This document shows, one piece after another, positions 5,422-9,699 of a stretch of DNA of 64,000 nucleotides. The translations under genes were made by a program, and so were the position numbers. Positions within the stretch are counted from its first letter, which is position 1, and each line of letters begins with the position of its first letter. The notes beneath the pieces are model-generated. The model was not told where the DNA came from. It ran no database searches and worked only from the letters and a program-made list of their open reading frames with translations. The stretch spans positions 868,001 through 932,000 of the forward strand of contig NZ_JAVDYC010000001.1 in assembly GCF_031458255.1 (NCBI RefSeq). Reading direction: 5' to 3'. Source of the stretch: Catenuloplanes niger. GTDB taxonomy: Bacteria > Actinomycetota > Actinomycetes > Mycobacteriales > Micromonosporaceae.

Positions 5422-5658
5422 ATGACCGCCACCTGGCTGCCCACACTGATCACCGCGAGCCCCGAGGAGGGGTACGACCTGGCCGTCACGCTGTCCCGGG
5501 TCGCGGTCCGGAAGACCCAGCCCGACGGCGAGGTACGCGCCCGGTTGCGGCAGTCCTACGACGAGGACTTCGGCGCCCTGATCGCCATCTCGCACGTCGT
5601 GGCCACGAACTTCCGGACCGTGGCCGCCGCGAACGACTACTGGCGGAGCGCGGGGTAG
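5422..5658 (+). CDS. Small protein of unknown function (78 aa)
   Basis: The start ATG has a strong ribosome site (GAAGAGGAGAG) and gives MTATWLPTLITASPEEGYDLAV. The 78 residues are soluble, mostly helical, and end YWRSAG. The gene sits 84 bp after the frameshifted secreted protein on the same strand and is convergent with the DUF6882 gene. Codon use is normal for the region, so I take it as real. No family recognised. Confidence 0.6.
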   Translation: MTATWLPTLITASPEEGYDLAVTLSRVAVRKTQPDGEVRARLRQSYDEDFGALIAISHVVATNFRTVAAANDYWRSAG

Positions 5659-5670
5659 CCGGCCCGGACG

Positions 5671-6336
5671 TCAGCCGGGCTGGATCGAGCCGGTCAGCCC
5701 GGTGACCCGGCCGAGCTCGTCGAAGGCGACCCGCACGTCGGTGCCGCCCGGGTGCCGGCCGGTCACCTCGGCCGGGGTGTCCTCGACCTGCCAGCCCTGC
5801 TGGGCCAGGAACGAGGTGACCATCAACCGGTGGTCGACCGGGAAGCCCTGCAGGACCTGGCCGACGACCGTGAGGACGCGCTCCGGGCGGGCCGGTGCGA
5901 CGATCTCGGCGGGAAGCCCTTCGAGGTGGAAGAAGAGCGCCCCGCCGTCGTACGGCCCGCGGTAGTAGCAGCGGCCGCTCAGCGCGGACGCGACCAGCGC
6001 CAGCTGCCCGCCCTGCGCCCGGTCGAGCGGGAACGACGCCTCGGTCAGCTCCGGGATCCCGTTGTTCGCACCGTACTCGCGCATCCACATGGCCAGGCCG
6101 AGCAGCGCCGGCGGGAGGTTGCTGGCCTCGTTCGCCCAGGCCCACAGCCAGGTGCCGTCGTGGTGGCTCTCGGTGCCGAGCAGTTGCACCCGGTAGCGCA
6201 GATCGCCGCCGAACGTGGCGGTCCCCTCGGTCAGGTCGAGCTGCCAGTCGCGGTCGCCGAGGTGATCGGCGAGCGCGAGCTGACGGGCGAGCGCGGTGGC
6301 GACGTGGCGGCTGAACAGGTCCTCGAACGGTGTCAC
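5671..6336 (-). CDS. DUF6882-like cytoplasmic protein
   Basis: This 221-aa protein of unknown function has the hallmark segment GTWLWAWANEASNLP near residue 61, preceded by an LGTESHHDG beta-strand region, and a C-terminal basic/acidic beta-rich tail. I match it to the DUF6882 family from memory of that Trp-rich motif; no biochemical role is known. The start is GTG at 6336. There are no membrane segments or signal peptide. It is convergent with the 78-aa gene and ends 12 bp from it. Confidence 0.65.
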   Translation of the reverse strand: MTPFEDLFSRHVATALARQLALADHLGDRDWQLDLTEGTATFGGDLRYRVQLLGTESHHDGTWLWAWANEASNLPPALLGLAMWMREYGANNGIPELTEASFPLDRAQGGQLALVASALSGRCYYRGPYDGGALFFHLEGLPAEIVAPARPERVLTVVGQVLQGFPVDHRLMVTSFLAQQGWQVEDTPAEVTGRHPGGTDVRVAFDELGRVTGLTGSIQPG

Positions 6337-6358: not shown

Positions 6359-7540
6359 TCAACAGTCCGTCAGCACGTCGACGACCCGGTCGATCTCGCC
6401 CTCGGTGTTGAAGTAGTGCGGGGACAGGCGCAGGCACCATTCGATGCCCTTGTCGGCGAAGTCGAAGCGGGCGTGCTCGCGCAGCGTCACCGAGCTGTTG
6501 ATCCCGTGCCCGGTCAGCGTCGCCTTCAGCGGTGCCGGTGCCGCGCCGTCGACCGCGCAGGTGACGATCGCACCGAGCGCGGGGCCGCGGTCCAGGACCG
6601 TGACGCCGTCGATCTCGCGCAACCGGTCCCGCAGCGACGCGGCCAGGCCGACCGCGCGCCGGGACAGTGCCGGGACGCCGATCCGGCGGGCGTAGCGGAT
6701 CGCGGCGGACAGGCCGAGCAGCCCGGCGTACGGGAACTCCCAGTCCTCGAACCGGGCCGCGGTCGCCACCGGCCGGTAGGCGCCCGGCTCGGTCCAGTGC
6801 GCGCCGCGCATGTCGATGAACAGCGGCTCGTAGCCGGCCGCGAGCACGCGTGCGGAGACGTACAGCAGGCCGGTGCCGCGCGGGCCGCGCAGGAACTTGC
6901 GGCCGGTCGCGGTGAGCAGGTCCGCGCCGATCTCCGTCACGTCCAGCGGCACCTGCCCGATCGACTGGCACGCGTCGACCAGGTAGAGCAGGTCCAGCTC
7001 GCGGCAGTGCCGGCCGATCGCGGCGACCGGTGCGATCAGGCCGGAGCTGGTCGGCACGTGGGTGACCGCGACCAGCCGGGGCCGGTGCGCGCGCATCAGC
7101 GCGGCCATCGCGTCCACGTCCACGCCGCCGCCGGGCGCGTCCGGCGCGTGCACCACCCGCACACCGCGCCGCCGGGCCAGGGACAGGAACGCGATCTGGT
7201 TGGAGATGTAGTCGTCCCGGGTGGTCAGCACGACGTCGCCGGGCGCGAAGTCGATCGCGGACAGTGCGGTCGCGTACGCGTGCGTGCTGTTGTTCGCGAA
7301 CGCGATCTCCGCCGGCTGCGCGCCGAGCAGTGCCGCCGCCTCGGTGTAGAAGTCCTGGATCTGCTCCGCGCGCGCGTCCGCCGCCTCGTAGCCGCCGATC
7401 TCCGCCTCGAGCCGCAGGTGCCCGGTCATCGCGTCCAGCACCGGCGCCGGCGGCAGGCTGCTGCCCGCGTTGTTGAGGTGGACCACCCGCGCGCAACCCG
7501 GGGTGTCGGCCCGCAGCGCGGCGACATCGAGATTCTCCAT
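6359..7540 (-). CDS. Class V aminotransferase / cysteine desulfurase-like PLP enzyme
   Basis: This 393-aa fold-type I PLP enzyme fits the class V aminotransferase family (cysteine desulfurase, isopenicillin N epimerase-like). From MENLDVAALRADTPG it contains HLNNAGSSLPP near the N-terminus, TRDDYISNQIA, VDACQSIGQVPLD (PLP-binding Asp/Gln region, about 205) and the Schiff-base lysine in TATGRKFLRGPRGTG (about 233). I start it at 7540, not 15 bp upstream, to match the family N-terminus. It is transcribed divergently from the tRNA-like element and the 669-aa unknown protein, with 75 bp between them. Substrate not predictable. Confidence 0.82.
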   Translation of the reverse strand: MENLDVAALRADTPGCARVVHLNNAGSSLPPAPVLDAMTGHLRLEAEIGGYEAADARAEQIQDFYTEAAALLGAQPAEIAFANNSTHAYATALSAIDFAPGDVVLTTRDDYISNQIAFLSLARRRGVRVVHAPDAPGGGVDVDAMAALMRAHRPRLVAVTHVPTSSGLIAPVAAIGRHCRELDLLYLVDACQSIGQVPLDVTEIGADLLTATGRKFLRGPRGTGLLYVSARVLAAGYEPLFIDMRGAHWTEPGAYRPVATAARFEDWEFPYAGLLGLSAAIRYARRIGVPALSRRAVGLAASLRDRLREIDGVTVLDRGPALGAIVTCAVDGAAPAPLKATLTGHGINSSVTLREHARFDFADKGIEWCLRLSPHYFNTEGEIDRVVDVLTDC

Positions 7541-7598
7541 ACGCGACGATAACAATCGATGTCAGAAAAATGTGCGGCGCCGGGCGTACCGCTTGCCC

Positions 7599-7604
7599 TA
7601 GGGT
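7599..7604 (+). promoter_or_regulatory. Candidate -10 element ahead of the tRNA-like RNA
   Basis: TAGGGT fits the actinobacterial TAnnnT pattern and would place a transcript start near 7610-7612, a few bases before the tRNA-like fold at 7616. I see no good -35 hexamer at 16-19 bp spacing, so this is tentative. Confidence 0.3.
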
Positions 7605-7615
7605 CTTGGCAGCGA

Positions 7616-7687
7616 CGGCGTGTAGCTCAGCGAGACAGAGCACCGGGCTGCTTCCCGGAGGGCGCGGGGGCGGGGCCCGCCACGCCG
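7616..7687 (+). ncRNA. tRNA-like cloverleaf forming the leader of the 669-aa protein mRNA
   Basis: The 72 bases fold into a complete cloverleaf with no mismatches. The acceptor stem pairs CGGCGTG (7616-7622) with CACGCCG (7681-7687), joined by T8 and A9. The D stem pairs GCTC (7625-7628) with GAGC (7638-7641) around a 9-nt loop starting AG and ending A, followed by A26. The anticodon stem pairs CCGGG with CCCGG (7643-7647, 7654-7658). There is a 5-nt variable loop, and a T stem GCGGG/CCCGC (7664-7668, 7676-7680) with a 7-nt loop. It departs from a working tRNA: the T loop is GGCGGGG and lacks TTCRA, the D loop lacks GG, the anticodon-type loop has 6 nt (CTGCTT), and no CCA follows. It ends 2 bp before the ATG at 7690. 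I read it as a structured tRNA mimic, not a tRNA gene. Confidence 0.75.
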
Positions 7688-7689
7688 GC

Positions 7690-9699
7690 ATGGATCAGAC
7701 ACCGGCCGGGTACGCGACCGGCCAGCTGGCGTCGGCGTTCGTCACCGCCGTCACGCACGAGGACGCGGCGACCCGGCGGCGGGCGGAGGAACGCGTCCGG
7801 CGGTGGTCGCTGGTGCTGTCCGGCGGCCACACGCACGGTTCCCGTACCCCGGTGAAAGGTCTTCCCGCCTGGGTCACGCTGGACGTGGTGCGCGGCGGGT
7901 TCGCCACCGGGGAACCGTCCGCGGGCGGGCCGCTGCGGCCACACGAGACGCGCTTCGGCACCCGGGCCGCCGCGTTCGCCCACTACCTGACGGACGCGGG
8001 GCTGGCCGAGCTGTACGCGCTGCTGGACAGCGGCGACTACCGGATCGACCTGCCGGAGCAGGGCGCGCTGCTCGCCGTCGCGGTGCTGCTGCGCGCCGGT
8101 GACCGCGCGGCCGCGCTGGACGTGCTGGACGCGATCGGCCCGTTCGCGGACCGGCTGTGCTTCACGCCGGTGCCGGACCGGCCGGTGCTGCGCGCGCCGG
8201 GCGTGGTGTGGCGCACCGGCGCCGGCGAGGTCGCCGCGCAGCTGGCCGCGCGGACCGAGAACCCGCGGATCGCGGCACAGCGGGAGACGCTGACCGTGTG
8301 GAACCCGCTGGCCGACGCGTTCCTCGCGCTCTGGCTGGACTTCGACGCCGGCCGGGCGCGGGAGCTGCTGGCCCGCTACCGTGAGCTGGCGGCGAAGCAC
8401 CCGCACAGCCGCAAGCATCTGCGCCGCAAGGAGAACCTCTACATCCTGCGGACCGCGGCCGAGCACGCGGTCGCCGGCCGGGAACTCACGCCACGGCACG
8501 CCGGGCTGCTTCGGGTCGCGATCGCGTCGATGACGGCCAAGCGCGGCCGTCCCGGCTCAGCCGGCCACACGGCGCTGCGGGCCGCGCAGGCCCGGCAGGC
8601 GGCACTGCCCGGACATCACGAGCTGGCGCACGCGGTCGCCGCGCGGCTGGAACACGTCGACCCGCGGTCCGGTGTCGCCGACGCCGACGCGGTGTGCGCG
8701 CCGGTCGGCGGCGTGCCGGTGCCGGAGCCGGTCCGCCGGGTGGTCCGCCGCGCCACCGCCGGGACGATCCCGGAGCTGATCCGCGCCGGGGTGGTGCCGT
8801 CCGCCGAGGTCCTGGCCCGGCTGACGCCGCAGGTCACGTCGCTCGTGGTGGCGTCCGGGTACGCGCATCCGGCGCTGATGGCGGCCGTGCACCGCGCGTT
8901 CCGCACCCGCCGGTCGCTGCTGCTGCTCCACTTCGCGCACCAGGTGCGCATCGACGAGCTGCCGTGGGTCGCCGCGCTGCGGACGTCCCGGCCGGCCGGG
9001 CGGGCGGAGACCGCGCGTCGGCTCGGCGACCACTACCTCACCGGCTTCCCCGGCACGATCACGCCGAACCCGCTGGTCACCGAGCTGTCCTCGCTCACCC
9101 CCGAGTTCCCGTGGGTGGAGGAGCTGGCCGCGGACATCTTCATGGACGGCTTCACGCCGAAGTTCGGCCGGGCCGCCACGCTCGCCGGGGAACTGCTCGA
9201 CGGCAGCCTCTACCAGCGCTACTACGGCATCGACTACGCGCGGGCCGGTGACGGCTTCGCCCGGTACTGCCGGAAGCGGGCCGGGTCGCCGCGCGGTTCG
9301 GTCACCGGGAACGGCGCGGTCATCGAGCAGGGGCAGATCGTGACCACGCACAATCTGGCCACGCTGGCGTACGCGGCCGGTGCCGCACCGGAGGACGGTT
9401 GGCACGGTGCGGCGGCCGGCGCGTTCGAGACCGTGCTGCGACTCGCCGCGCGACCGCCCGCGCCGCGCACCCGCAAGGACATCGCGTACGCGTGGCGGCA
9501 GGCGGTCTTCTTCCTGTCCGTGCCCGGCGCCGGCGACCCGCGGGACGCGATCGCCGGGTTCCACGACCGGCTCGCGGCCGCGCCCGCGCCGGTCCGGGAC
9601 CTGATCACGCCGGTCGTGACCGGCCTCGGCCGCGTCGCGTCCGGCACCGGCGACGCCGGCCCGCTGCTCGGCTGGGCGGTGCGCCGGCCCGGCCGGTGA
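7690..9699 (+). CDS. Unknown 669-aa protein encoded directly behind a tRNA-like leader
   Basis: I do not recognise this family. From the ATG at 7690 the 669 residues are soluble and largely helical, with no signal peptide or membrane span. Stretches that look conserved are TPVKGLPAWVTLDVVRGGFATG (about 54-75, split here by me), RYRELAAKHPHSRKHLRRKEN (basic, about 230-250), FPGTITPNPLVTELSSL, ELAADIFMDGFTPKFGRAA, YQRYYGIDYARAGDGF and GNGAVIEQGQIVTTHNLATL. No Walker, HExxH, von Willebrand A or nuclease motif is evident. The basic helical middle could bind RNA (inference). An ORF start exists at 7570, but it would translate the whole tRNA-like fold; the ATG at 7690 immediately after it is preferred. 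Confidence 0.75.
   Translation: MDQTPAGYATGQLASAFVTAVTHEDAATRRRAEERVRRWSLVLSGGHTHGSRTPVKGLPAWVTLDVVRGGFATGEPSAGGPLRPHETRFGTRAAAFAHYLTDAGLAELYALLDSGDYRIDLPEQGALLAVAVLLRAGDRAAALDVLDAIGPFADRLCFTPVPDRPVLRAPGVVWRTGAGEVAAQLAARTENPRIAAQRETLTVWNPLADAFLALWLDFDAGRARELLARYRELAAKHPHSRKHLRRKENLYILRTAAEHAVAGRELTPRHAGLLRVAIASMTAKRGRPGSAGHTALRAAQARQAALPGHHELAHAVAARLEHVDPRSGVADADAVCAPVGGVPVPEPVRRVVRRATAGTIPELIRAGVVPSAEVLARLTPQVTSLVVASGYAHPALMAAVHRAFRTRRSLLLLHFAHQVRIDELPWVAALRTSRPAGRAETARRLGDHYLTGFPGTITPNPLVTELSSLTPEFPWVEELAADIFMDGFTPKFGRAATLAGELLDGSLYQRYYGIDYARAGDGFARYCRKRAGSPRGSVTGNGAVIEQGQIVTTHNLATLAYAAGAAPEDGWHGAAAGAFETVLRLAARPPAPRTRKDIAYAWRQAVFFLSVPGAGDPRDAIAGFHDRLAAAPAPVRDLITPVVTGLGRVASGTGDAGPLLGWAVRRPGR

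Follow-up and report, generated by a model that had tools for sequence, protein, structure and literature searches.

The window, i.e., the whole 64,000-nucleotide (nt) stretch of Catenuloplanes niger DNA that we analyzed, carries a tRNA-like RNA whose cloverleaf ends 2 nt (G73 and C74) short of the ATG at position 7690, the start codon of an ORF of 669 amino acids (aa; Table 1). Reading the RNA base by base, we confirmed all stems, linkers, and loops that an earlier note on this DNA had described, as well as the two-base gap to the start codon.

Table 1. Positions in the window of the tRNA-like RNA, the ORF behind it, and adjacent features
Feature	Position	Strand	Basis or remark
ARAGORN call 'tRNA-Val (gac)', 97 nt	5613-5709	-	Overlaps DUF6882 ORF; probably a false call
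Class-V aminotransferase	6359-7543	-	Divergent neighbor
-10-like box TAGGGT	7599-7604	+	11 nt 5' of tRNA-like RNA
tRNA-like RNA, C1 to C74	7616-7689	+	Sequence, ARAGORN, Rfam match, compensatory changes
Acceptor stem, 5' strand	7616-7622	+	Pairs with 7681-7687, 7/7 bp in the window
T8	7623	+	Sequence
A9	7624	+	Sequence
D arm	7625-7641	+	4-bp stem 7625-7628/7638-7641; A18 G19 replaces G18 G19
D loop, 9 nt, AGCGAGACA	7629-7637	+	Sequence
A26	7642	+	Sequence
Anticodon-type arm	7643-7658	+	5-bp stem 7643-7647/7654-7658
Anticodon-type loop CTGCTT, 6 nt	7648-7653	+	Sequence
Variable loop	7659-7663	+	Sequence
T arm	7664-7680	+	5-bp stem 7664-7668/7676-7680
T loop, rebuilt, GGCGGGG	7669-7675	+	Sequence
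Acceptor stem, 3' strand, with G73 (7688) and C74 (7689)	7681-7689	+	Abuts start codon
ORF, 669 aa	7690-9699	+	Predicted all-helical; family nameless in searched libraries
Conserved C-terminal helical domain, residues 420-669	8947-9696	+	Near-invariant motif EQxQILTTHNLA

ARAGORN labels the RNA 'tRNA-???' (i.e., an unassignable tRNA). The earlier statement that no described RNA family could be named for it does not hold, as the Rfam tRNA model (RF00005) itself matches positions 7616-7688 at 37.3 bits (cut-off 29). Among the 63 tRNA matches in the genome, only one scores lower, a partial match at 31.3 bits, and the other 61 reach 50.6 bits or more. Between 7500 and 7800, tRNA was the only Rfam family that matched the RNA up to an E value of 10, with two weak matches lying outside it; no T-box or other described leader RNA, riboswitch families included, matched at the locus, and ARAGORN called no tmRNA in the window or in the scanned loci. 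A faster Rfam scan of the whole window reported no match for the tRNA-like RNA; the second ARAGORN call of the window (Table 1) was absent from that same scan. That no CCA is encoded, as previously noted, is correct and carries little weight, given that an encoded CCA is also missing from 53 of 65 tRNAs of Streptomyces coelicolor, according to PMC4681348. Folded alone, the segment 7600-7720 was not more stable than its shuffles (z +0.81), and the minimum free energy (MFE) fold of the window copy retains just 52% of the cloverleaf pairs; at least 90% of these pairs are present in the MFE fold of 44 of 86 copies.

The earlier note had also described the ORF product as a protein of unknown function; consistently, we found no match for it in Pfam (up to E 1), NCBIfam, PADLOC, or PDB sequences, and its relatives, where annotated, are annotated 'hypothetical'. 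The AlphaFold2 model of the C-terminal domain (pLDDT 90.1, pTM 0.89) had no convincing match in the PDB, and the protein possibly has a new fold. The protein has no recognizable RNA-binding domain, and its mean net charge is only +1.2 per 100 aa. Three loci of genus g70 (L099, L100, and L102) form a divergent side branch with shorter ORFs (613, 625, and 488 aa, respectively); the TTHN motif is altered in the first two, and the RNAs of all three have anticodon stems with compensatory changes. On the other side of the RNA, the aminotransferase has its best NCBIfam likeness to EgtE (ergothioneine), at 162.7 bits versus a cut-off of 400.

Conserved cloverleaf, rebuilt elbow, and free anticodon

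Using a sequence-only alignment of 31 copies, RNAalifold returned exactly this cloverleaf, with both sides changed in 6 pairs; 99.8% of cells pair, and two-sided changes number 29 versus 7.5 in shuffles. We then searched 92 of the 97 loci obtained from protein searches with an RNA model, R1 (excluding the duplicates L002 and L039, as well as L060, L061, and L106, which are second pieces of included genomes), which yielded 101 copies in 86 loci. In the resulting alignment, which was made to the R1 model and is hence biased towards it, and whose cells count sequences rather than events, paired cells make up 99.1%, and two-sided changes, distributed over 12 pairs, number 184 versus 45.4 in shuffles. 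Thus, two-sided changes across homologues exceed those of shuffles in both sets. More specifically, 5 of the 7 acceptor-stem pairs show such changes among the 99 distinct copies, and C1-G72 is invariant (101/101). The tertiary pair 15-48 also co-varies (G-C in 86, A-U in 7, and other combinations in 6 of 99 distinct rows), a tRNA-specific relation for which a bare cloverleaf would have no need. These comparisons indicate that the cloverleaf fold is under selection. Together with the conserved pairing of RNA and protein described below, the compensatory changes support the earlier view of a maintained tRNA mimic rather than a decaying gene.

The window RNA lacks the standard elbow of a D-loop GG and a T-loop TTCRA. 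At positions 18/55, 89 of the 101 copies have A/G and 9 have G/T (A18 in 90, G55 in 91, T55 in 10); at 54/58, G/G occurs in 83 copies and T/A in 14, and 19/56 is G/C in 98 (G19 in 98, C56 in all 101). Because 18/55 and 54/58 are replaced jointly and 19/56 is kept, the missing GG and TTCRA represent a coordinated exchange. As regards the elbow, the earlier claim that tRNA identity has been lost therefore needs correction, the elbow having been rebuilt rather than just lost.

In the anticodon loop, C32 is kept in 101/101 and U33 in 98/101 copies, and positions 34-36 display 33 triplet states, gapped ones counted. Decoding tRNAs have a 7-nt anticodon loop and a purine at position 37; here, position 37 is a pyrimidine in 23 of 99 copies. 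The 6-nt loop reported earlier is real in the window copy but exceptional overall, with gaps in 11 and 7 nt in 90 of the 101 copies. Mapped on a tree built from the proteins of 80 loci, positions 34, 35, and 36 underwent 25, 27, and 24 changes, respectively, and four-fold codon sites (n = 66) a mean of 19.9 (sd 5.3). Similarly, in 36 independent close pairs, the anticodon had a normalized divergence of 0.61, four-fold sites one of 0.60, and the remaining variable positions of the RNA one of 0.59, the difference between the first two being 0.00 (-0.17 to 0.17); the triplet differs in 26 of these 36 pairs. Since its divergence equals that of four-fold sites, the anticodon is neither conserved nor over-diversified, and this absence of conservation is a strong argument against decoding.

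Diversifying selection on the anticodon was considered, as 52 pairs at 75 to 85% protein identity seemed saturated (1.02 versus 0.53 at four-fold sites), and rejected, because these pairs are non-independent and the 36 independent pairs show no difference. Between copies of the same array (21 pairs, raw percentages), agreement was 25% at anticodon positions versus 35% between loci, and 57% versus 50% at other variable positions; one of the 21 pairs shares an identical triplet. Pairing of the anticodon loop with leader or ORF, in the style of a pseudoknot or IRES, was not clearly in excess over the 82 loci compared, the strongest of fifteen comparisons (upstream 40 nt, 5-mers) giving 12 versus 7.8, a value reached by 21 of 500 permutations.

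Linkage to one protein family and placement of the start codon

The protein was detected in 37 of 300 Micromonosporaceae genomes, 27 of 394 genomes class-wide, 31 of 199 in genus g70 (one at E 9.9e-4 only), 6 of 12 in genus g88, and 3 of 246 phylum-wide, one of the three belonging to a different class; the samples overlap. Carriers include Catenuloplanes japonicus and plasmids of Embleya, Streptomyces, and Curtobacterium. The distribution is patchy, several copies are fragments, and phages and viral contigs held no relative of the protein.

Asking how regularly the RNA stands upstream of homologues, we found it directly 5' of the ORF in 28 of 30 Micromonosporaceae loci (L001 and L003-L031), in all 27 protein-positive genomes of the class-wide sample, in 27 of 30 given loci of genus g70, and in 6 of 6 plasmid records. 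Both Micromonosporaceae exceptions (L008 and L027) have protein matches that miss the N-terminus, and the three in g70 (L101, L103, and L104) are fragments; with L059, these make up the 6 of 92 loci that lack the RNA, all of them partial family matches or without the N-terminus. The reverse search with R1 used a cut-off of E 1e-11 or better, which leaves out the canonical-elbow type; genomes with the RNA numbered 14 out of 121 for g70, 12 out of 150 for the family, and 21 out of 394 for the class. Every one of these places adjoins a protein match by coordinates, except in genome G608, where the RNA lies beside an N-terminal remnant of the family; hence, in none of the three samples did we find an RNA without its protein, bar that remnant. 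No other neighbor is conserved in more than 7 of 36 loci (the window plus 35 neighborhoods, each up to 20 kb long), with distances and orientations varying and many neighbor clusters consisting of overlapping frames of one gene. Three related loci (L146-L148) have an oxidase-like ORF 78-99 nt downstream. In two plasmid records (L073 and L074), a locus-tag number is skipped just before the family ORF (RS33905 and RS20980 are missing), which suggests that an RNA gene had been annotated there. Ten of the 86 loci carry arrays of 2-4 RNA copies, with spacers down to 2 nt. From these comparisons, RNA and protein are a conserved pair, occurring in many soil-dwelling Actinomycetota, and not a relic.

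Start codons were analyzed in the 80 loci with an ORF of at least 580 aa, of which 73 have the rebuilt elbow and 7 the canonical T55. Of the former, 71 place the start codon 0-2 nt past C74, the other two being Curtobacterium plasmids (10 and 12 nt); none of the 73 has a Shine-Dalgarno (SD)-like motif, and starts are ATG (68) or GTG (5). The 7 canonical-elbow loci have gaps of 10-28 nt by script-called starts, which are GTG or TTG; GGAG- or GGGG-like stretches are visible near the start in 6 of the 7, one of these stretches overlapping the script's start. In G608, where the elbow is rebuilt, the remnant ORF starts 23 nt downstream. We argue start placement from its conserved position and not from stop codons, because only 26 of the 80 loci have an in-frame stop within the tRNA-like part. 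Upstream, 76 of 82 loci have a TANNNT box at 3-35 nt from the RNA (11.8 in shuffles), most commonly at 10 nt, and these promoter-like boxes suggest that the RNA is transcribed as an mRNA leader. The combination of an upstream promoter, no SD motif, near-zero distance, and ATG/GTG starts fits a leaderless mRNA generated by cutting off the tRNA-like part. For actinobacteria, PMC4681348 lists 264 S. coelicolor mRNAs with leaders of <10 nt, along with RNase E and tRNase Z homologues, and PMC3848588 gives AUG (68%) and GUG (29%) as starts of leaderless-type mRNAs in Propionibacterium acnes. The leaderless rule as described for mycobacteria has the codon at the very 5' end, whereas the mRNA predicted here keeps 1-3 nt before its start.

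Interpretation and known systems

In our interpretation of the locus, tRNA-style cutting would give rise to a leaderless mRNA and also to a tRNA mimic serving as partner of the helical protein, a reading to which we assign a probability of roughly 45%. Its starting points are comparative observations, namely a conserved fold, the strict association of RNA and protein, the start-codon adjacency, the absence of an SD motif, and the lost anticodon constraint. RNA and protein gene would form a single transcript from the promoter just 5' of the RNA. The RNA appears to keep the tRNA body and its tertiary contacts but to have abandoned decoding, with an anticodon free to drift and, in most lineages, a rebuilt elbow. 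RNase P and RNase Z would most likely cut the transcript at both ends of the tRNA-like part; a rebuilt T loop may, however, impair recognition by these enzymes. Further points against this reading are the 10-23-nt leaders of three rebuilt-elbow copies (the two Curtobacterium plasmids and G608), the 1-3 nt retained before the start codon, and a protein of low net charge in which no RNA-binding domain is recognizable. The remaining mRNA, starting 1-3 nt before its AUG or GUG, would be translated as a leaderless message, and the freed RNA may act in trans on the product of the gene behind it, either as its partner or as its regulator, much like the Y RNA of a Ro60 particle. The tRNA-operon-like arrays suggest that the RNAs are separable, and a dedicated partner is suggested by the conserved non-canonical elbow, the adjacent gene being the sole gene always present; we thus infer that the RNA binds the protein of that gene. 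A complex of the two, and any role of it in RNA stress or defense, would follow from such binding.

The main rival is a cis-acting operator, i.e., the leader stays on the mRNA, where the protein, or tRNA-binding machinery, binds it and controls the mRNA's own translation. Much of what we observed would agree with an exclusively cis-acting role: the start codon abuts the structure, such that initiation could be blocked; linkage to one gene is strict; and body and elbow are conserved while the anticodon is not, as it would be if the protein normally bound tRNA bodies. We nonetheless deem it unlikely, in that (i) arrays of up to four closely spaced copies resemble separate RNAs; (ii) the canonical-elbow clades insert a 10-28-nt leader between RNA and ORF; and (iii) the loop shows no alternative pairing with leader or ORF. 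A somewhat smaller chance goes to the RNA being a processing signal only, with the tRNA-like part cut off as waste and the supply of leaderless mRNA depending on RNase P/Z. Near-exact abutment, missing SD motifs, ATG/GTG starts, and an unconstrained anticodon all agree with it, but a canonical T loop should suit tRNA processing best, and what is conserved is a specific non-canonical elbow; moreover, arrays would be pointless, and the linkage is to one protein family only.

We judge it improbable that the RNA is a bait, i.e., a target of anticodon nucleases that would trigger or relieve the protein on being cleaved or sequestered. The many triplet states, rarely shared within arrays, and the accessory, patchy occurrence, plasmids included, would suit a bait, but anticodon divergence does not exceed that of four-fold sites, and PADLOC gave no convincing match. 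There is very little to recommend a working decoding tRNA, be it an unusual isoacceptor or a suppressor: set against the Rfam match, U33, and one copy with the triplet CTA are the unconserved anticodon, the pyrimidines at position 37, the shortened loops, and the 61 strong tRNA matches that the genome has besides. In addition, tRNA-Ser has a long variable arm, and Ser-type triplets occur here without one. A decaying tRNA gene or a chance cloverleaf beside an unrelated ORF, with which the unremarkable single-sequence folding would agree, can practically be dismissed in view of the compensatory changes, an association spanning several families and two classes, and the lack of orphan copies apart from the G608 remnant.

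Among known systems, the closest arrangement to the pair is Ro60 (Rsr) with Y RNA (YrlA), in which a protein gene likewise has an adjacent noncoding, partly tRNA-like RNA; no kinship between the two is detectable. In Deinococcus radiodurans, Y RNA is described as tethering Rsr to PNPase (PMC7790460). No TROVE domain was detected in 25 family members, and hhalign gave a probability of 0.2% against 8 TROVE proteins. Inspected by eye, 6 of 8 stretches from TROVE loci have the T arm before the D arm near GGTGC...TACTTC motifs; in contrast, the RNA studied here comes only as an unpermuted cloverleaf and abuts its ORF. Of 12 actinobacterial TROVE loci, 4 also receive tRNA calls from ARAGORN (L127, L130, L131, and L134), the call in L127 resembling an ordinary tRNA.

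The closest known logic is the mitochondrial tRNA punctuation scheme, reportedly set out by Ojala et al. in 1981: a tRNA fold stands directly before an ORF, and its excision would leave a leaderless mRNA. Of the 73 rebuilt-elbow loci, 71 have the fold directly at the start of the ORF, unlike the 7 canonical-elbow loci. In mitochondria, decoding tRNAs stand between many genes, whereas here we see one apparently non-decoding mimic with one gene family, and cleavage is what we infer. Transfer RNA itself (RF00005) shares the cloverleaf, the 8-14, 15-48, and 19-56 relations, and the model match, and differs in that here the elbow is rebuilt in most copies, the anticodon is unconstrained, and one ORF is linked. 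Compared by description only, the yjdF riboswitch resembles the RNA in being a tRNA-like shape 5' of a gene; PMC9142559 describes it as a tRNA-shaped leader that controls the downstream gene and binds small azaaromatic compounds.

We recognized no description of this RNA-protein locus in the open-licence literature, and, judged by that literature, the pair appears to be undescribed. It is easily overlooked, because gene finders call the RNAs odd tRNAs and the proteins are annotated hypothetical. More tentatively, and with some doubt, we propose that it may represent a new class of bacterial ribonucleoprotein, in which a tRNA mimic excised by punctuation, with the elbow as its identity mark, and a helical protein would serve in surveillance or defense concerned with tRNAs or their attackers. 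If our reading is true, the short list of bacterial RNA-protein particles would gain a noncoding RNA that derives from tRNA and has a protein of its own, the locus would show that a tRNA body can be retained while decoding is given up, and bacteria would have a counterpart to mitochondrial tRNA punctuation.
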